Source of the DNA: Chthoniobacteraceae bacterium
GTDB taxonomy: Bacteria; Verrucomicrobiota; Verrucomicrobiia; Chthoniobacterales; Chthoniobacteraceae
Assembly: GCA_028293625.1 (NCBI GenBank)
Contig: JAQGOL010000025.1
Coordinates: forward strand, 1 to 64,000
Direction of reading: 5' to 3'
Length of the DNA stretch: 64,000 nucleotides
Shown: positions 1-31,544 of the stretch, one piece after another
Layout: the number at the start of each line of letters is the position of its first letter
Position numbering within the stretch: position 1 is the stretch's first letter
Translations under genes and position numbers: made by a program
Notes under the pieces: generated by a model
What the model was told of the DNA's origin: nothing
Database searches by the model: none
The model's input: the letters and a program-made list of their open reading frames with translations, nothing else

Positions 1-4063
<4,063 letters not shown>

Positions 4064-21081: not shown

Positions 21082-24000
21082 TCATGGGAAGATCTCAATA
21101 AGAAGGCGGCCGAAATAGTTGCCTGTCACAGGCGAAGGCGCGCGATACTCAACAGTCTCGGTGCCGTCACCGTTATTGACGCTGCCGGTATGAATCAACG
21201 GCTCCCACTTTGTCAGGTTGATTGAGTAGCTCGGAAAGTAGTCTGTATCCGATCCGCGGATACTTCGCCGAAACCGGAAGACAAAGTAGCTCGATTCAAT
21301 GCCGTTGATAAGGAACGGTTCGATGGCGGCAACGGGTGAGCGGCCGGTTGTCGGCAGGAGCGGGTTCGTGCGGAAAGCATACTCAAACGCGTTTGAAAGG
21401 CCATCGTTGTCCTGATCATCCAGTGGCGCGGTCAGTGTGAGCGCGGGAGAAAGTGACAGCCAGCTTGAAAATGTCTCATTCTCCACAGCGCCCGGGCTAC
21501 CGCCGATCACGGCGCTGCTGCTCCAGTGAATTGGCAACGCGGGGTCGGGATTTGTTTGAGGCCGCCGCAGGATAAGCGAGTATCCGCGTCCATCGGCGCT
21601 CGCGGGCCATGGACCCGTGTCGCTATAAGTAAAGCTCGTGATGGGAGCGCTTGCCGAGCTGACGAGCGTTACCGTTTCCCCCGAGTGGCTGAAGCGTCCG
21701 ATGAAAACGCCCGTGGCCGCAAAGCCCGCGCGCGATTGGAATGCCGCGGCATTGCGGGCCAGGACCAAGACTCCACCGGGCGGCACGATTGTGCTCGCCG
21801 TAAAATTGAACGTCAGACCTTGGGTAAAGGCGCTTCCGGCAAGTTCCACAGCGGCGGGACTGATGTTGTGCAGCTCAATAAATTGGAAGTCGTCCGCATC
21901 GGAAAATCCGGCGCTCTGCTCAGCAAGCGTGGGATCGGCGGGATGATAATGGATTTCGGAAACAACCGTGTTCAGCGCACTCGCGGCGACATTCGTAGTA
22001 TTGCTCGTCACCGTGATTGTATCGGAGCCAGCGGCGGTCCCGTGCTGATCGGCTGCCAGGAGGGTGATGGCGTTGATGCCGGCGATAAGCGGGATGGTGA
22101 CACGCCACGTTGTGTTGGTAAGCCAGGTAACGTTCAGCGGCGCCGTTTGACCGCCCCGGGAAATGGTATAAACATCGCTCCAACCGCTCCCCTCAAGCGT
22201 GACGCTGTTTGCGGCGGTGGTGAAGTCCGCCCCTCCATTGGTGCTGATAACAAATGGCACGGCCGGTGGAAGCTGCGTAAGCGCGTAACTGCCGCGCGCA
22301 CCAACATAGCTCCCAATCGCCGCAAACTCCGCGCCTTCGCCAGTAACAGCCGCGAGATGGTTAATCCACGGGGTCAGGTAAGTGGAATTGAAGGTGGTAT
22401 TGACCAGGTCAAGCAGATGGCTGTCAAAGGCGCGCTTGTAAGCCGTGATAGTGAAAAGCGTCTGAATATTCTGATAAGCGCCGTTGCTGTCGGTGGTCGG
22501 CACAAGCGAGGAGTTTGTGGCGAGGTTGAAGGCGCGATCAAGATCCCACGGCAGCGCGATAAGCCGGCTATCGGTCGGGCGCGCGTAGAGACGCCAGTTA
22601 TGCGGGTAAAGCCGGCCGTACTGGTCGTCGTTTCCATAAAGGCCCATCAGCGCCCAAGTGCGCATCCATTGATCGACGTCGATGGTGGCGTCGATTTCAT
22701 TTGTGAATGCCGAACCGCCAAGCGCAAACGCCCGGTTTAAGCGGATAACGGTGCGGTAATCATCGGCCTTGCGCCGATTGCGAAGCTGCCATTGCCAACG
22801 ATATGATTCCTTGTCCGCGCCGCGGTCAGCCAAGCCGAGAAAGCCGCGCGTGTGGTTGTATGGATTGTTTAGTTTAAGACTTTCCGGCGCCCCATCGATT
22901 GTTCCATTTGGCTGGTAGAGCAGCTCGTTGTTAAAAACAATCCCGTTACTTTCATGCGGGAACAGGCTTTTCAAAAATACACTGGTCGTGCGCGCCGCCG
23001 CAATGAGCGCGGGCGCATTGATTCCACCCGGGCCGATTACTTTCGCCACGTCATCATACTGGCTCCAGTATCCGCCACCAGCTCGGTTAAGAATGTGCTT
23101 GGCGACGATCTCCTTCAGATTGCCGGCCCGTTCAATACTGACATTGGTATGCACACCGCGGAACGGCTGCTCGGGTGGAAAATCAATGCTGTAGCCAAAC
23201 TCCGTGGCGGCATAGCGTCCAAACGCACTTCCTTTGAGCCCAATGCCGCATTGGTAATAAGCCGTGCGCTCATCCTCGATTACCGTGCCCGGATAAAGCT
23301 GATTGCTCATCCGGTTTGTATTTAGAAACAGCGCCGCCTCGTTTTCGGGCGAAATGAGCACGCGAAAGGTCCCCCTTAATCCGCTTGTATCAGCGCCGCC
23401 GTCGTTGACGCGATAGAACGCACCGCCTTTCTCTCCTGCCGCCGGCCACTTCGCATTTACCCCAGGTAAATCAGTCGCACTGATATAAAATTGCACAAGC
23501 GCGCCGGCAGATTGTCCGGGCACATTCGCTGTATAACGTCCATCGACGCCGGACGCCATCGCCACGTTTTGCCATGCGCCACTGTTAACCCGGTAGAAAA
23601 GCAGGACGCTTGCAACGCCATCGGGATCGCCAGGCAAAGCGGAAACCGTGACGGGCGCATTTGCCGCCGGGACGATAGGTGAATGCGCGACGCCGCTTAC
23701 TACCGGCCCCGCATTTGCGATGGCCACGCTGTTTTGGAAGCCCGGCGTGCCCCATCGATTACCTACCGCAAGCAGTGAGGTCTGTTGAAGGTAGTTGAAG
23801 TAAAGCCGCGTGTTGACCTGGTTTGAGCCGGCAAGCCAGCGCGCCCTGAATGAAATGGTATAGGTGTTGCCGATTGTCACGTGCCTGCCCGAGGCGAAAG
23901 TCGTCTCAATCCGATTATGCTTGTCGTCCGTATGTCCGGTGGAAACCACGCGCAGGCATTTGTTTGTTGAATCATCCGGGTCGGCCACCACAACGGTGCG

Positions 24001-26262
24001 GCCGTGGATCCCATGCGTGCCGAGCAGACGCCATTTGAGCGGGCTGCCGCCGAGCGCGTCGGCCTGGAACGTGCCGTTTTGGATAAACTCCGTGTTGGCA
24101 CCGGACGGATTCTCACGCACGCTGACGTCGTCGAGCAGCAATTCGCCGCTATCGAGCAACCCGAGCAGGAAGTCGAAGAACGTGTCGTTGCCGATGCCGT
24201 CGTCCGTCGCGACGGCCGTGTAGGAGATCGTCTGCCAAATACCAAGCTGCGCGGTTGCACTTGCACCCCACGATTCCGCCGCCGCATTCTCGGAGGCGGG
24301 ATCACGCAACTCGAGGCTCGCTCCACCGCCGGCGGCTGTCTCCGGCCAGCGGCCCCCTTCTTCGTAATGAACTTCATCCGCGGGATTGCCGGAGGTCTCC
24401 TCCAAAGTAAGCGTGTCCCCATCGCCCAGGCTGCCGCTGAAATTGCCGATGATTGCGCGCCCCGGATATTTCGCGAGCAATGCCGCGGCGTTGTTACTGA
24501 CAACAAGCAATTGTCCGGCCCCAAGAGAAGTCCCCGGCGGGAACGTATAAGTAATTCCGTCGCTGAATTTCCACCCACTTAAATCGACCACGGCGCTACT
24601 GCGATTCTTTAACTCCACCCATTGCTCGGACGACTCGTCAAAGGCGTGATAGAAAATTTCATTAATCACAATGCCCGCCTGAAGGCTGAATACATTTGCA
24701 GATCCAAAGGTCGGCGCACTTGGCCGTAGCCAGCGGCCGGTGCCGGGAATCTGCCGGGCGCGCGATGTGCCCGCCACTTTCACCGCGTCGACCAACTGCA
24801 TGCCGGCACGCAGAAAGAGCCGTGCGTTGTTAAGTGGGCGAAAATGAAGCGCGGTTTCATTCACCACCAGATAGGCGCCGGCGGCCAGGGTTGTTACGGG
24901 AAAATTGTAGCTCGCACCAGTGTCGCCGTTTACCAGCTGCCAGCCTGTCATGATCACAGGATTCGTGCCGCCATTGTACAGTTCACATTGCCAGAGCCCA
25001 TCGGACGTGCCGCTTACTTCGTTGAAAAAAACCATCGGCAGCGTCGCATTCCAGGGCGCGTTCAGAGGAAAATTCGCGGCACCAGGCGTGCCGTTGACGC
25101 CAAGGCTCCAGGCCCAGTTGGCCGGCATTCCACCACCCTGAGGGTCGATTTTTGAAAGCGTGAATCCGGAGCCGTCGGGTGCGACCGGCCATTTCCCCGA
25201 ATCCCCATAACTGAACTCCTCCATGAGCCGCCGCTTTTCCAAGCTGGCCGAGTAACTCCCCGTCTCCACCGGGGCCGGTGTGCCACCCGGTTCGATAAAA
25301 AGCTGAAGGCCGCTCCAGTTAGCCTCACCGCCGGGCGCATCGGCATTGCCACTGATTTTCCCCGCAGCGTCCGGATGAATACCCGAGATCAGCACACCAC
25401 CGCCAACCGGCGCGGTGAATGCCGCATCATCGGCAATAGATCCGTTGCCATTCACATCGGCCTTAATACGCACCGAGCGCACGAAACTTCCGTAGAGCCA
25501 GATGCTATATACTTTTGCCGGATTTAATCCCGTGAACTGCCACGTCACGCTTGACGCGGAATTTCCCGCGGCAAGGAACAGGTAATCATTCAAGAGCGCA
25601 CTGCCCGGCGCGTAACTGAACCCGCTGATAGTGCCATTGATGACGAACCCAACACTGCTCGTAGTTCCCGCGCTATCTTTTAGACTGGCAAGGGCGGGGT
25701 TGATACTCGTCCCTGGGTGGCCGGCGATCGTGAGCAGATTCCAGATATTTCCAAAGCCGCTTACCGGTTCCACACCGCTCATCGGTGTCGGCGGCACCTG
25801 GCCAAATGCGCCGGCCGCCCCGTCTCCCTGTATGTCGATGCTCCAAAGTTCGTTTGAGGCAGGCGCCGGCGGTGGACTCGGCCGGGTGCGCAGAGCCCGG
25901 TTGTTGTTCCAAAGCTGCAGCGTTTCGCCATCATTGGAAAGTGATCCGGTAAAAGGGCCCGCCGCGCCCGCATATCCTGTAGCCGCCTGCAAAGCCAAAG
26001 GATCTTTTGCTACGACAAGGTAACCGCGCGCGGGAATGATTGTCCCCTCCGGAAAATCGAAGGTGATCCCGCCATCAAACCGCCAGCCCGAGATATCGAC
26101 ATTCACCGAGAGCTGATTGTGTAACTCCACAAACTCAAGCGCGGCATTGGAGGGATTGTAATGAACCTCGTTGACGACAACAACACTGTCGCCCGCGCCG
26201 AACAGTCGACCGCATAGTAAAAGACTAACAGCAACAAGGAATGATAAGATCCGCGTGTTCAT
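21082..26262 (-). CDS. Giant exported lamin-tail-domain / CotH-kinase-like protein
   Basis: Protein of 1726 residues with a signal peptide (ILSFLVAVSLLLCGRLFGA). Several lamin-tail (LTD) modules are visible by their repeated NEVHYNP/NEIFYH/SEIHYHP strand and GWRFDGGITF-type turns, near residues 28, 411, 534 and 1437. A CotH-like atypical kinase region lies at about 950-1290, with NDDQYGRLYPHNWRLY and ALPWDLDRAF near 1215-1240 matching the family's HN and PWDxD motifs. The final 100 residues resemble the C-terminal region of other verrucomicrobial LTD proteins; there is no PEP-CTERM anchor. It lies 110 bp downstream of the PEP-CTERM gene on the same strand, so co-expression is likely. A surface or matrix role is inferred; kinase activity is unproved. 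Confidence 0.85.
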   Translation of the reverse strand: MNTRILSFLVAVSLLLCGRLFGAGDSVVVVNEVHYNPSNAALEFVELHNQLSVNVDISGWRFDGGITFDFPEGTIIPARGYLVVAKDPLALQAATGYAGAAGPFTGSLSNDGETLQLWNNNRALRTRPSPPPAPASNELWSIDIQGDGAAGAFGQVPPTPMSGVEPVSGFGNIWNLLTIAGHPGTSINPALASLKDSAGTTSSVGFVINGTISGFSYAPGSALLNDYLFLAAGNSASSVTWQFTGLNPAKVYSIWLYGSFVRSVRIKADVNGNGSIADDAAFTAPVGGGVLISGIHPDAAGKISGNADAPGGEANWSGLQLFIEPGGTPAPVETGSYSASLEKRRLMEEFSYGDSGKWPVAPDGSGFTLSKIDPQGGGMPANWAWSLGVNGTPGAANFPLNAPWNATLPMVFFNEVSGTSDGLWQCELYNGGTNPVIMTGWQLVNGDTGASYNFPVTTLAAGAYLVVNETALHFRPLNNARLFLRAGMQLVDAVKVAGTSRARQIPGTGRWLRPSAPTFGSANVFSLQAGIVINEIFYHAFDESSEQWVELKNRSSAVVDLSGWKFSDGITYTFPPGTSLGAGQLLVVSNNAAALLAKYPGRAIIGNFSGSLGDGDTLTLEETSGNPADEVHYEEGGRWPETAAGGGASLELRDPASENAAAESWGASATAQLGIWQTISYTAVATDDGIGNDTFFDFLLGLLDSGELLLDDVSVRENPSGANTEFIQNGTFQADALGGSPLKWRLLGTHGIHGRTVVVADPDDSTNKCLRVVSTGHTDDKHNRIETTFASGRHVTIGNTYTISFRARWLAGSNQVNTRLYFNYLQQTSLLAVGNRWGTPGFQNSVAIANAGPVVSGVAHSPIVPAANAPVTVSALPGDPDGVASVLLFYRVNSGAWQNVAMASGVDGRYTANVPGQSAGALVQFYISATDLPGVNAKWPAAGEKGGAFYRVNDGGADTSGLRGTFRVLISPENEAALFLNTNRMSNQLYPGTVIEDERTAYYQCGIGLKGSAFGRYAATEFGYSIDFPPEQPFRGVHTNVSIERAGNLKEIVAKHILNRAGGGYWSQYDDVAKVIGPGGINAPALIAAARTTSVFLKSLFPHESNGIVFNNELLYQPNGTIDGAPESLKLNNPYNHTRGFLGLADRGADKESYRWQWQLRNRRKADDYRTVIRLNRAFALGGSAFTNEIDATIDVDQWMRTWALMGLYGNDDQYGRLYPHNWRLYARPTDSRLIALPWDLDRAFNLATNSSLVPTTDSNGAYQNIQTLFTITAYKRAFDSHLLDLVNTTFNSTYLTPWINHLAAVTGEGAEFAAIGSYVGARGSYALTQLPPAVPFVISTNGGADFTTAANSVTLEGSGWSDVYTISRGGQTAPLNVTWLTNTTWRVTIPLIAGINAITLLAADQHGTAAGSDTITVTSNTTNVAASALNTVVSEIHYHPADPTLAEQSAGFSDADDFQFIELHNISPAAVELAGSAFTQGLTFNFTASTIVPPGGVLVLARNAAAFQSRAGFAATGVFIGRFSHSGETVTLVSSASAPITSFTYSDTGPWPASADGRGYSLILRRPQTNPDPALPIHWSSSAVIGGSPGAVENETFSSWLSLSPALTLTAPLDDQDNDGLSNAFEYAFRTNPLLPTTGRSPVAAIEPFLINGIESSYFVFRFRRSIRGSDTDYFPSYSINLTKWEPLIHTGSVNNGDGTETVEYRAPSPVTGNYFGRLLIEIFP

Positions 26263-26372
26263 TTTTAGGGGGAATCCTCACTTCATTCTTACTCGTAATC
26301 TTAATCTTCCCTTCTTCCGCGTGCGCGCTTGCCAGGTAAAGACGAGATTACGATTACGAGGGGGAAATCTAT

Positions 26373-28841
26373 TTACGCGCGTCGACGACGGAGGCCAAGC
26401 AGCAGGCCGAGACCGCCAAGCAACGAGATCGCGGCGCTTGGTTCAGGAACGGCCATCAAGGCCACATCGTTGCCGCCATGAAATGCATTGCCGGGATCGC
26501 TCTCGGCTACAAAGCTCGCATCGTAGCTCACGTAGAATGTCGCACCGCCGATATTGACGGCGTTTTGTCCGCCCAATGTGAATGTATTCGAGAAGCTTCC
26601 GAGCGTGGCGCCGGCGCCATTGTTAACAATCACAAATAGCAGGTCGCCGGATAGACGCGTTTCCTGGTAATTATTGATGAGCGAGCCGCTAAGATCGCCT
26701 GCCAACGAAATACCGGATTCGGCAGCTACATTGATGCGGTCGGACTGCCCCGCGCCTTTGCCTCCGAGTTCAATGACGAGACGTGCGCCGACGCCAAGAT
26801 CCAAACCTGTGCCGCTGCCGTTGCCAACATTCATCGTGCCGGCTGCGTTGATGACATCTCCACTATTCAACGTACCGCCGCTCAACACGGCAACATTTCC
26901 AAGCGTGCCCGCGCCGCGAAGAATGCCGGTATCCTGAACCGTCGTCGCGGAACCGGCAATCGAGCCGGTCACAAAAAGCGTTCCGGAGTTCACGTCCGTC
27001 GGGCCGGTGTAAGTATTGACACCGGCAAGAGTCATCGTGCCGCTGCCGGCCTTGAAAATGCCGGTTGGGATTTCAGCCAGCGCGCCGTCGCGGTTATTTT
27101 GGAAAGCTGCTGAAACAACAAGGCTGCCCGCCACGTTGAATGTTGTCTGGCTGCCCGCCACGATGCTGCCTACGAGCATCTGCGAATTGGGGCCACTTCC
27201 ACTAATCAAAGAAGGCACAACGCCTTCCACGGCAATCGGCCCTTTGAGCGAGAACGCCGGGAAACTCGCATTCGCGCCACCGACAGAATTGATCGTGCCT
27301 CCATTGAGGGTCATCTCACCGAGTGTGGTGAAGAAGTTGCCGCCATTGGCGATTGTGCCGCCATTAAGAGTAATGGACTGGGAGACGGCAACGGCATGAT
27401 TGCCAAAGCTATCATTGCGATCGAAGCGAAGCGTTGCGCCATTGCCAACCACGATCGGAGCGCCTGCTCCAAATGTGCCATTGCCACCCAGGGCGAGCGT
27501 CCCGGCATTGACTGCAACCTGCCCGGTTGTTGTGTTTGAACCTGTCAATGTCAGCACGCCCGCGCCGCCACTTTTGGTGATCGTGCCGTTGACATCGAGG
27601 TCATTCACGAGCGCTCCGCCGTAGGTCACGTCAAAGCCGTTTGTGTCAAAAATAAAGCCGCCTGACTTCACGGTCTGAGTCGCAAGCGCGGGCGCCGTAA
27701 TGAAAGCCGTCGTTGCAACGTTTGCCCGAAGGAGCGTGCCGTTGTAATTGATGGAAGTTCGCGCGGCGGCTCCCGAGCCGGTGTGAATCGCGGAGGCAAT
27801 GAGCGTGCCGCCATCAAGATTAAGCGTCACCGAGCCTGCCCCGACACGCAACATCCCGAGGTCGCCCTCGCCATTGGAGCCCGTGCGCTTCATTTCAATG
27901 CTGCCGGTGCCGCTCAAATTAAGGACGGCGCTGGTCGCGCTGCCATTGGCTGCCATAAGGATCCGGCGCCCGACTTCAAGGCCGCCTGCATTCACGGTTA
28001 GCGTGCCACTGGCCGATGCACCGCCGGAAACCATAACACCCAGATTGATTGATGCGTCGAGCGCACCCTCCGCGCCTACTTTCACCATGCCTCCGGAGAT
28101 GGTCACCGCGCCGGTTGCGACCTGCCCGGCACCGATTGTCACACCGATGCGCACTGCGCTGCCGTAACCGTCCCCGCCAAAAGTATGCGTGCCACCCGCG
28201 AACGTCACCATGCCGGAACCGGCCCCATTGCCAACTGCCAGCCCAAGCGAAGTGATCGTTCCAGCCTGTGTCCATGTGCTGTTTGCCCCGGAAAAAAGAA
28301 CTTCGCCAGCCGCTACTCCATTCCCAACAAGCAACTGGTCGACGGACATGGCTCCCGAGAGTGCGATCTGCCCCAATCCGGATGTGGAAAGGACGTGCGG
28401 CGTCGTGCGGCTGAGGCCGCCGCTCACCGTCAACAAGCGGTCGGCGGCAACATTCCAAGTCTGATTTTCGCTCAAGGAAAGAGGAGCGGTGATCTTCAGG
28501 TTGCGTGTTGCGCTCTCAAGATCAATGCCGGCGCCGCCTATCGACAGCAGTTCCGTGCCGCCAATACTCACCGCCTCGCTTGGAGTCGTGATTTTGACAC
28601 CGAGAATCGTAAAGGGAACATCCACTGTAGTGGCGAGATTGGCAGTCGAGCTGGCATCAAAAAGCGCGGTATCCGCCGCACCCGGTATGGCGCCATCGAG
28701 CCAGTTGGTGCCTGTGCTCCATTGAGGACCCGTTGCCCCTGTCCATGAGATCGGTGCCGCTATGGCAGAGCCGGAATGCAAAATTGTAAAAGCAAATGCA
28801 CCGATGGCGGTTGCACAGATTGGAGGGAGGGACTTCTTCAT
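26373..28841 (-). CDS. Autotransporter-type beta-strand repeat surface protein with PEP-CTERM signal
   Basis: Protein of 822 residues. It has a signal peptide after MKKSLPPICATAI, then a long Gly/Thr/Asn-rich right-handed beta-helix with recurrent autotransporter-associated strand repeats (for example ANTYTGPTDVNSGTLFVTG and TLTGSNTTTGQVAVNAGTL). At the C-terminus is a classic sorting signal: VPEPSAAIS, a hydrophobic helix and an RRRR tail. Such proteins are exported, processed by exosortase and displayed or released. No exosortase gene is in the window, so the enzyme must be elsewhere. There is no barrel domain, so it is not a true autotransporter. Start 28841 is chosen because the upstream ATG adds 16 residues ahead of a normal signal peptide. 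Confidence 0.9.
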   Translation of the reverse strand: MKKSLPPICATAIGAFAFTILHSGSAIAAPISWTGATGPQWSTGTNWLDGAIPGAADTALFDASSTANLATTVDVPFTILGVKITTPSEAVSIGGTELLSIGGAGIDLESATRNLKITAPLSLSENQTWNVAADRLLTVSGGLSRTTPHVLSTSGLGQIALSGAMSVDQLLVGNGVAAGEVLFSGANSTWTQAGTITSLGLAVGNGAGSGMVTFAGGTHTFGGDGYGSAVRIGVTIGAGQVATGAVTISGGMVKVGAEGALDASINLGVMVSGGASASGTLTVNAGGLEVGRRILMAANGSATSAVLNLSGTGSIEMKRTGSNGEGDLGMLRVGAGSVTLNLDGGTLIASAIHTGSGAAARTSINYNGTLLRANVATTAFITAPALATQTVKSGGFIFDTNGFDVTYGGALVNDLDVNGTITKSGGAGVLTLTGSNTTTGQVAVNAGTLALGGNGTFGAGAPIVVGNGATLRFDRNDSFGNHAVAVSQSITLNGGTIANGGNFFTTLGEMTLNGGTINSVGGANASFPAFSLKGPIAVEGVVPSLISGSGPNSQMLVGSIVAGSQTTFNVAGSLVVSAAFQNNRDGALAEIPTGIFKAGSGTMTLAGVNTYTGPTDVNSGTLFVTGSIAGSATTVQDTGILRGAGTLGNVAVLSGGTLNSGDVINAAGTMNVGNGSGTGLDLGVGARLVIELGGKGAGQSDRINVAAESGISLAGDLSGSLINNYQETRLSGDLLFVIVNNGAGATLGSFSNTFTLGGQNAVNIGGATFYVSYDASFVAESDPGNAFHGGNDVALMAVPEPSAAISLLGGLGLLLGLRRRRA

Positions 28842-29020: not shown

Positions 29021-30043
29021 ATGAATCCTATTCTCCGACTTCTCGTTGTTGCCACGGTCTCGCTTACCGCCATTCCAGCGGGAGCCCACGGCCCCGGTGC
29101 CGGAAATGATTTCGAGGGCCGGCGCGTTCTGTTCATCGGTGTCGATGGATGCCGCGCGGATGCTTTGCGCAAAGCCGTCGAGAAGGGGCAGGCGCCAAAT
29201 TTCCAATCTCTTATCCGGGAAGGAACCGTTTCCTGGAATGGCTTTGCAGGCGGCGACCCGGATACCGGGACCGAACAACAAACAATGAGCGGTCCGGGCT
29301 GGACAACCATCTTCACCGGCGTCTGGCGCGACAAACACGGCGTCGCCGACAATCGTTTCCTTTATAACCGCATCGCGCAATGGCCCCATTTTATGCGCCG
29401 GCTTCGGGAAAGCGTTCCGACCGCGTGGACAGCTTCGCTCTGCGATTGGCCTGAAATCCACAAATTCATTGTCGGCGAGTCGCGGGCCGGAGCGCGCGAT
29501 TTTATTAATTTTGAATTTCTTGCCTCACCGGATCCGGCACTAAAAGGACGCGATTACGCGGCACGCGACGCGGAGCTGACAGCCCGCGCCGTGGAACATT
29601 TAAAAGTGGCCAACCCCGACGTGATTTCGGTTTACCTCGGCCAGGTTGATGAGGTCGGCCACGCCGTGGCGGATACGGCGGGTCGTTTTTCGCCGGAGAA
29701 CGAACCGTATCTTGCGGCCATTGCGCAAGTTGACCGTCATCTGGGAGAACTGCTCGCCGCCGTCCGCGCGCGGGAGCAGTTTGCGCAGGAAAACTGGCTT
29801 GTGCTCGCAACCACCGACCACGGCGGACGCGGGACCAGCCACGGGGGACAGAGTCCGGAGGAACGGACGATCTGGATGATCGCCACCGGGGGAAAGGCGC
29901 AGCGCGGCGCGGTTGAAAACCAGGCGGTCGCGCAAACGGCAATCCCGGCCACCATCTTCGCGCATCTTGGCGTGCCTGCCAAACCCGAGTGGGGTTGGAA
30001 TACTCGGCCCTTTGCGCTGCCGGCGCCCATCGAAACGCAGTGA
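29021..30043 (+). CDS. Secreted alkaline phosphatase superfamily enzyme (type I phosphodiesterase/nucleotide pyrophosphatase)
   Basis: Protein of 340 residues with a signal peptide (ILRLLVVATVSLTAIPAGA). The metal-binding core is readable: FIGVDGCRADAL (first Asp), MSGPGWTTIFTGVW with the likely Thr nucleophile, VYLGQVDEVGHA, and TTDHGGRGTSHGG supplying Asp-His ligands. The family hydrolyses phosphodiesters, pyrophosphates or related esters in the periplasm; the substrate is not deducible. It is the first gene of a five-gene run (gaps of 49, -4, 15 and 12 bp) and is divergent from the PEP-CTERM gene across 179 bp. Confidence 0.88.
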   Translation: MNPILRLLVVATVSLTAIPAGAHGPGAGNDFEGRRVLFIGVDGCRADALRKAVEKGQAPNFQSLIREGTVSWNGFAGGDPDTGTEQQTMSGPGWTTIFTGVWRDKHGVADNRFLYNRIAQWPHFMRRLRESVPTAWTASLCDWPEIHKFIVGESRAGARDFINFEFLASPDPALKGRDYAARDAELTARAVEHLKVANPDVISVYLGQVDEVGHAVADTAGRFSPENEPYLAAIAQVDRHLGELLAAVRAREQFAQENWLVLATTDHGGRGTSHGGQSPEERTIWMIATGGKAQRGAVENQAVAQTAIPATIFAHLGVPAKPEWGWNTRPFALPAPIETQ

Positions 30044-30092
30044 GGCGTTGCCAACCCCTCTTCCTTCCACTCACTCTGCCACTCCTCCCGCC

Positions 30093-31544
30093 ATGACACG
30101 CAAAGAATTTCTCGCCCTTCTTGCCGCCAGCTCCGCCACCCGCGCTTTTGCCGAAACCGCGGCCGTTCCGGATGCTTCGAAACCGCCCGCCGCGCCGGCG
30201 AAAGTACCGGCGGCACCGTTGAAACTTCCAGCAATCCAGCCGGGCAAACCGTATTTGCAAGCGGGCCCCATGGTCGGGCATGTTGGACCGGCTGAAGCAC
30301 GCATTTGGATCCGCGCGACAGCGCCGGTGCCATGGAGTGTGCGGATTGGCGAATCAGCGGGCCTTGAGGATGCGCGTGAAATCCCCGGTCCCGTTGTAGC
30401 CGAAACGAATGCCTGCACCGCCACGGCGATCATCGAGGGGCTCAAACCTGGTACCCATTATTTTTACCAGGTTCTGCTTGAAGACCGGCCACAGACCGTT
30501 GCGCCCCTTCCTTCATTCACCACCTCACCGGAAAGCGGGATGCAGGGACGCCAACGGATCGCATTTGGTTCGTGTGTCGGAGAGACAGCGGCATCGGCGG
30601 CTGGAGCGTGGGCGGAACTCGCCGAGCGCCGCGAGATGGGAGCCAAAGCAGGCGGCTTCGATCTGCTCCTAATGCTGGGTGACAATCATTACGCTAACAC
30701 GACTGAAGCAGCCAAACAGCGGACATATTACACAGCCCATCGCCTCAGCGCGGGCTGGCGCGACCTGAGCGCGCACACGCCGGTTTACGCCATCTGGGAT
30801 GATCACGATTTCGGCCCTGATAACTCGGATGGAACCCAAAAGGGGAAAGAAACTTCCCTTCAGGTTTTCAAAGAGTTCTGGGCAAATCCTTCCGCGGGCG
30901 AACCCGAAAATCCGGGCTGTTATTTCACCTTCACACGCGGCGACGTGCAATTCTTCATGCTCGATGGCCGTTACCATCGTTCCCCGGACAAAGCGCCTGA
31001 CACCGCGGAGAAAACCATGTTCGGCGCCGCCCAGCTGGCCTGGCTCAAACGCGAACTGCTCGCTTCCAAGGCTGTCTTTAAGATATTGGCAAACGGCAGC
31101 GAATGGCAAACGTTCGGCTCTGACGATTCCTATTCCATTTACAGGCAGGAACGGGACCCTTTCCTTGCGTGGATCGATGAGCAGAAAATTGAAGGCATCA
31201 TCTTCCTGAGTGGCGACCGTCACTTTTCCTCCGCCTACCATATACTCAACCGGTTTGTGGAACTCAGCAGCGGCCCTTTTGGCAGCACCAATGCGCGCTT
31301 GCGTCCGAACCCGGAGCGGTTCAGCGGCTACGATGAAGGAAGCCTCTGGATGATCCTGGACATCGATACGACCGGACCTCAACCGCAGCTGGCTTACGAA
31401 CTTTGGCTCGGTGGCGGCGGGCTGCTTGAACGCCGCTCCCTGAGCTGGGATCAACTCCACGGCAAGGAACCTATCGCCGCATCCCCCGCCCCGCTCCAGC
31501 CCACCCGCTGGCCGGCCCGGCCGGCAACCCCAAAGACGGCATGA
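30093..31544 (+). CDS. PhoD-like alkaline phosphatase
   Basis: Protein of 483 residues starting MTRKEFLALLAASSATRAFA, a signal-peptide-like N-terminus with only one arginine, so Tat export is uncertain. After a fibronectin-like beta domain (RIWIRATAPV) come the metallophosphoesterase landmarks of PhoD: AFGSCVGE, LMLGDNHYAN, YAIWDDHDFGPDNSD and FLSGDRHFS. The family releases phosphate from mono- and diesters, including teichoic-acid-like polymers and nucleotides. Start 30093 follows a Pro-rich untranslatable-looking extension of the longer frame. It overlaps the next gene by 4 bp (ATGA), implying translational coupling. Confidence 0.9.
   Translation: MTRKEFLALLAASSATRAFAETAAVPDASKPPAAPAKVPAAPLKLPAIQPGKPYLQAGPMVGHVGPAEARIWIRATAPVPWSVRIGESAGLEDAREIPGPVVAETNACTATAIIEGLKPGTHYFYQVLLEDRPQTVAPLPSFTTSPESGMQGRQRIAFGSCVGETAASAAGAWAELAERREMGAKAGGFDLLLMLGDNHYANTTEAAKQRTYYTAHRLSAGWRDLSAHTPVYAIWDDHDFGPDNSDGTQKGKETSLQVFKEFWANPSAGEPENPGCYFTFTRGDVQFFMLDGRYHRSPDKAPDTAEKTMFGAAQLAWLKRELLASKAVFKILANGSEWQTFGSDDSYSIYRQERDPFLAWIDEQKIEGIIFLSGDRHFSSAYHILNRFVELSSGPFGSTNARLRPNPERFSGYDEGSLWMILDIDTTGPQPQLAYELWLGGGGLLERRSLSWDQLHGKEPIAASPAPLQPTRWPARPATPKTA

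Follow-up and report, generated by a model that had tools for sequence, protein, structure and literature searches.

The window analysed here, a 64,000-nucleotide stretch of contig JAQGOL010000025.1 from a Chthoniobacteraceae bacterium (GCA_028293625.1), contains two large genes that follow one another on the minus strand (Table 1). The first encodes a PATR-repeat (autotransporter-repeat) protein with a PEP-CTERM sorting signal and the second, 110 bp further on, a protein that combines lamin tail domains (LTD) with a CotH-fold domain; spacing and strand are as the first-pass annotation had given them. The N-termini of both proteins read as signal-peptide-like, that of the second also by a hydrophobicity heuristic.

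Table 1. Features of the PEP-CTERM/PATR and LTD/CotH gene pair; positions are those of the window.
Feature	Positions	Strand	Remark
First gene: PATR-repeat protein, exported, with PEP-CTERM sorting signal	26373..28841	-	822 aa
PEP-CTERM motif of first gene	26379..26450	-	residues 798-821
Gap between the genes	26263..26372	-	110 bp; one hexamer-repeat palindrome at 26292-26360
Second gene: LTD/CotH protein, exported	21082..26262	-	1726 aa
Signal-peptide-like N-terminus of LTD/CotH protein	26194..26262	-	about the first 23 residues; hydrophobicity heuristic
Lamin tail domain	25897..26187	-	
Lamin tail domain	24853..25026	-	weak
Lamin tail domain	24361..24678	-	
Lamin tail domain	21622..21972	-	
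CotH-fold domain as modelled	22168..23391	-	residues 958-1365; Pfam match 22336-22782
R1016	23215..23217	-	subfamily-specific invariant
K1130	22873..22875	-	subfamily-specific invariant
E1152 and R1155	22798..22809	-	subfamily-specific invariants (KExYR)
D1213	22624..22626	-	equivalent of CotH catalytic Asp (B. subtilis D228)
H1221-N1222	22597..22602	-	invariant His-Asn
D1240 and D1242	22537..22545	-	in PWDLD; D1240 equivalent of D251
C-terminal module	21085..21519	-	TSP3-like DxDxDGLSN, then about 100 aa with RL-type strand at end

The C-terminus of the first-gene protein has the VPEP motif, hydrophobic helix and basic end of PEP-CTERM proteins and scored 22.2 bits against TIGR02595 (cut-off 16) over the residues listed in Table 1, bearing out the sorting signal (VPEPSAAIS, a helix and RRRR) that had been proposed at first pass; the Pfam PEP-CTERM model gave 16.6 bits, under its cut-off of 20.7. 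PATR repeats were matched at 47.8 bits (cut-off 27), and a beta-helix follows from this match as the predicted fold. The same genome holds 36 PEP-CTERM matches and five matches to exosortase (PF09721) over the cut-off, and the product of the first gene would be an exported, exosortase-sorted surface or matrix protein.

In the LTD/CotH protein, PF00932 (lamin tail) scored 180.5 bits (cut-off 34.3) in four stretches and PF08757 (CotH) 47.2 bits (cut-off 23.8) at residues 1161-1308, a match that spans profile positions 134-285 of 322 only. The lamin-tail modules noticed at first pass are thus present, as are the CotH-like motifs PHNWRLY and ALPWDLDRAF, which hold the expected catalytic residues. 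Searches of the genome gave 33 CotH genes, 32 by Pfam match and one, on contig C6, by similarity to the LTD/CotH protein; the latter (L178, C6:323498-327394) belongs to the same subfamily as the LTD/CotH protein and was missed by the Pfam search. By a crude heuristic, 30 of the 33 CotH frames have export-like starts, and most of the 95 LTD matches in the genome lie inside CotH reading frames. The C-terminal module, which had no Pfam match over the cut-off, has 27 matches in this genome, mostly at the ends of CotH proteins, and is possibly a sorting or anchoring end.

In a scan of the 110-bp gap for intrinsic terminators and sigma-70-type promoters none was listed, the results being no more than chance. 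The palindrome in the gap folds as RNA at -28.6 kcal/mol (z -1.91) and could affect read-through. It belongs to a dispersed family of hexamer repeats, (TAATCK)n...(MGATTA)n, whose pattern matches 31 times in this genome (with some matches nested inside a single element) and 122 times in another genome of the family (G018); none was found in 36 other relatives, three of the same genus included, and a reversed-pattern control also gave none. At 19 of 20 loci inspected the copies were intergenic, in all gene orientations. Two predicted phosphoesterases (Phosphodiest family and PhoD-like, 29021-31544) are encoded immediately upstream of the pair, but on the other strand.

Alignment with CotH structures, suggested in the first-pass annotation as a check, matched both lobes of B. 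cereus CotH. The AlphaFold2 model of the CotH domain, with 79 relatives as input, had a pLDDT of 90.5 and a pTM of 0.88; it matched 5jd9 in Foldseek at E 2.3e-13, and VIA-align placed it on 5JD9 (B. cereus CotH) with Z 30.5 and an rmsd of 2.8 over 322 residues (model 5..376), the next family after CotH reaching Z 11.6. The extent of this match indicates that the N-lobe is present and that the domain, as modelled, is a genuine two-lobed CotH fold. Consistent with this, a profile built from 32 of this genome's CotH domains matched both lobes of 5JD9 (E 7.8e-42); a profile of the LTD/CotH protein's subfamily alone matched the C-lobe only at significance.

The C-lobe residues D1213, H1221-N1222, D1240 and D1242 are retained in all 85 subfamily rows (5 from this genome, the LTD/CotH protein included, and 80 relatives), and also in all 11 loci recovered with a profile instead of a motif. 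D228 and D251 mutants of B. subtilis CotH are inactive, according to the excerpted text of PMC7821199; we infer the correspondence of these residues from spacing, the two Asps of 5JD9 being separated by the same 23 residues as D228 and D251. Loss of the catalytic Asps, which the first-pass annotation had named as the result that would count against its proposal, can therefore be rejected, both equivalents being intact in the same 85 rows and 11 loci. Nor did the motif search force the conservation of the Asps. The search that gave the 80 relatives used two peptide patterns, of which one contains P[WH]D, and 35 of the 80 carry the other pattern only; all 35 keep both Asps, as do the 11 profile-found loci.

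The N-lobe of the subfamily is different from that of other CotH proteins. No Lys occurs within four columns of the N-lobe Lys column in any of the 85 subfamily rows, whereas 22 of the genome's 27 other CotHs have one there (18 in the exact column), and the N-lobe Glu column holds Glu in 0/85 rows versus 23/27 (within four columns, 11/85). In the LTD/CotH protein itself E1021 and A1090 occupy these columns, N-lobe residues being matched by aligning sequences of low identity (14-17% to CotH). The Lys and Glu of other CotHs presumably serve in ATP binding, by the logic of kinases in general. The subfamily has invariant charges of its own: R1016, K1130, E1152 and R1155 (R-K-E-R), among 13 invariant positions over the 80 sequences, are conserved in 80/80 sequences and in 11/11 profile-found loci. 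The profile search yielded 28 loci outside this genome, and the count of 11 covers the strong ones, all in other Verrucomicrobiota and all with the same subfamily signature; weaker plus-strand matches (e.g., L201-L203, L207 and L211) lack the full R-K-E-R set and fall outside the subfamily. On a quick tree of 103 rows, calculated without a mixture model and carrying a warning of joined long branches, the R-K-E-R subfamily forms one clade of 76 rows with support 100; this tree omits locus L189 and 19 relatives that had no usable upstream gene. Going by record title, most of the 80 relatives belong to Verrucomicrobiota or Planctomycetota and a few carry other labels, and within the phylum 24 of 288 genomes (this one counted) have a match at E 1e-10 and 10 of the 287 others a match under 1e-100. 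Judged by its sequence, the LTD/CotH protein belongs to a divergent CotH-fold subfamily, which we do not file as a CotH kinase since the N-lobe Lys and Glu are absent from it; given this absence and the subfamily's own invariant charges, ATP-dependent phosphorylation is not to be assumed.

One explanation of these features, possible if somewhat unlikely, is that the CotH domain has no activity and serves for binding only, as a pseudokinase within a large LTD structural protein, the pair being co-deposited components of the matrix or envelope. The subfamily-wide loss of the N-lobe Lys and Glu would fit such a protein, as would its several LTD modules and the export signals on both proteins, ATP to our knowledge not being expected outside the cytoplasm. 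However, the invariance of the C-lobe catalytic residues and of the four new charges (80/80 and 11/11) exceeds what is expected of a decayed enzyme.

The pairing of CotH and PEP-CTERM genes is real, non-random and recurrent. In this genome, seven of the 33 CotH genes are immediately preceded by a PEP-CTERM gene in the same orientation (gaps of 6-110 bp), compared with a chance expectation of about 0.2 if 36 PEP-CTERM genes are counted and 0.9 if 150 are (binomial P 1.7e-9 and 2.3e-5, respectively; both figures assume an estimated 5,600 genes). Two further CotH genes are followed by a PEP-CTERM gene in the same orientation and one has a divergent PEP-CTERM neighbour, so that 10 of 33 are adjacent to one in some arrangement and 23 of 33 are not; PEP-CTERM genes make up 11/63 of the genes neighbouring CotH genes versus 4/197 of those further away (Fisher P 5e-5). 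The paired CotHs fall into different subfamilies. Among the eight of 10 partners that were examined, PATR occurs in four (the first gene included; one also has PA14) and DUF642 in one, and three have PEP-CTERM as their sole known domain.

Two of the paired CotHs of this genome, L032 and L056, have both the Lys and the Glu, and this bears on the proposal of the first-pass annotation that the second protein might phosphorylate the first. An ATP-dependent kinase acting on its PEP-CTERM partner would have a precedent in Bacillus, where, as excerpted from PMC7821199, CotH phosphorylates CotB and CotG, products of the same cotB/cotG/cotH cluster, in which the kinase gene lies beside the genes for its structural substrates. 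The CotH fold with its equivalents of D228 and D251 and the recurrent pairing point in the same direction. Nevertheless, we regard this proposal as quite unlikely for the LTD/CotH protein, whose subfamily has neither the Lys nor the Glu of the N-lobe and which appears to be exported to where there is no obvious ATP; L032 and L056 are better candidates. Thus the fold, the catalytic Asps and the recurrent pairing of the earlier interpretation stand, but phosphorylation as stated is not supported, in view of the N-lobe and of the export signals on both proteins.

The pairing extends beyond this genome and recurs both in other genera and among Planctomycetota, the CotH subfamilies and the partners being different ones. 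In eight of 60 relatives with an upstream gene, that gene is a PEP-CTERM gene in the same orientation, and in four more it is a divergent one; PEP-CTERM genes account for 13/125 of the genes adjacent to CotH versus 6/360 of those further away (P 8e-5). In G013, five of eight CotH genes found by similarity to the LTD/CotH protein are paired, the corresponding counts being 1/1 in G021, 1/2 in G022 and 0/1 in G003; L108 and L130 seem to coincide with loci of G013 and G021, so that genome and relative counts overlap there. The gaps of upstream same-strand pairs in the family's genomes are 5-112 bp. Conservation of gene order, which the first-pass annotation had also suggested examining, holds in part. 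The nearest row of the tree, L179 of G013 (another genus; 68% identity over the protein), has a PEP-CTERM gene of 2177 aa 14 bp upstream, with a different downstream gene, but an adjacent PEP-CTERM gene is absent at L067-L069 (67-70% domain identity) and at L073 (60%); at L069 one lies three genes upstream.

Several other arrangements were observed among the relatives. In a planctomycete clade (L079, L080 and L085) the CotH and PEP-CTERM genes are transcribed away from each other, 29-113 bp apart. At L112, L122, L127, L132 and L136 the CotH gene comes after a gene whose protein ends in HLLG[IL]DHERL...; by eye this gene resembles DUF1501 genes and would represent a second recurrent neighbour of CotH. 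In addition, the planctomycete relatives L074, L077, L079, L100 and L121 have a putative dockerin-like end (D-x-D/N repeats, by eye).

On the 103-row tree the pairing requires 16 changes, 15 of them forced by starred branches, and is weakly clustered (16 of 500 shuffles were as low). It was therefore gained or lost repeatedly and not inherited once, and a single cassette copied around can be rejected on the same count. That the two genes are functionally unrelated members of two large exported families, adjoining by chance, would agree with the unpaired homologues at 67-70% (three) and 60% (one) identity. This explanation is highly improbable in light of the enrichment in this genome and in relatives, the short gaps of the upstream same-strand pairs and the repeated gain or loss on the tree.

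We consider the chances about even that the two genes form a functional pair in which the CotH-fold protein, as an exported enzyme or scaffold, acts on the neighbouring surface protein. The LTD/CotH protein would act on the first protein or hold it in the envelope or matrix, in parallel with Bacillus, where CotH acts on the products of its neighbouring genes, CotB and CotG. Given the replaced N-lobe residues and the expected lack of ATP beyond the cytoplasm, we rank ordinary phosphorylation below other transfer or binding; most likely the CotH domain would catalyse transfer to its partner, or bind it, by some means other than the usual phosphorylation from ATP. Here we infer co-expression of the pair, the partner's role as substrate or ligand and the chemistry, as well as the working together of the paired proteins outside the cytoplasm. 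A broader extrapolation, which we regard as doubtful, is that Verrucomicrobiota and Planctomycetota have a dedicated extracytoplasmic modification or assembly system of exported CotH-fold transferases, each encoded beside its PEP-CTERM target, in which the donor site of the R-K-E-R subfamily would be rebuilt for a donor other than ATP. We know of no substrate motif shared by the partners, which belong to different families (PATR, DUF642 and others).

Comparison with known systems indicates what is shared and what is distinct here. The LTD/CotH protein has in common with Bacillus CotH (PF08757; 5JD9, 5JDA) both fold lobes, the catalytic and second Asp and the Asn, and the locus resembles cotB/cotG/cotH in clustering a kinase-fold gene with the gene for a structural surface protein. 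Unlike Bacillus CotH, the CotH domain here would be exported within a 1726-aa LTD protein, has the N-lobe Lys and Glu replaced and four subfamily-specific invariant charges, and is partnered by an exosortase-sorted PATR protein that is, as far as known, not part of a spore coat. The first-pass annotation was right to call CotH of spore formers a kinase, but "secreted-protein kinase" was imprecise, as the excerpted text of PMC7821199 describes a spore-coat kinase distantly related to the Fam20C secretory kinases. Neither the CotH fold nor an LTD-CotH protein is new outside spores, as the excerpted text of PMC6083626 shows: Cthe_0239 of Clostridium thermocellum (LTD-LTD-Fn3-CotH) also joins LTD and CotH in a protein of an extracellular complex, but it is a component of the cellulosome and no PEP-CTERM partner is described in that text. 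PepA of Aquincola, a PEP-CTERM/exosortase protein, has a C-terminal sorting signal like that of the first-gene protein, and a role in extracellular polymer is proposed for such proteins; however, pepA occurs with the TPR gene prsT, and the excerpt of PMC9850573 describes no CotH partner. Similarly, Sfz6 of stalk-forming Zetaproteobacteria is a large CotH protein discussed in connection with an extracellular structure, but it has SH3 in place of LTD, and no PEP-CTERM partner is described in the excerpt of PMC8250860. No work joining CotH with both exosortase and PEP-CTERM was found among the matches listed in our literature searches, and the matches listed for the stem Verrucomicrobi with CotH or lamin tail, and for planctomycet with CotH, held nothing on PEP-CTERM pairing; neither the R-K-E-R subfamily nor the recurrent coupling of CotH to PEP-CTERM genes was found in the literature searched.

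The reproducible gene pairing ties together two large, little-understood exported families, PEP-CTERM and LTD/CotH, and yields candidate pairs of CotH-fold protein and substrate outside spores. Finally, a subfamily in which the catalytic residues are intact and the N-lobe is rebuilt makes it testable in what way a kinase fold might function beyond the cytoplasm, where ATP would not be expected.
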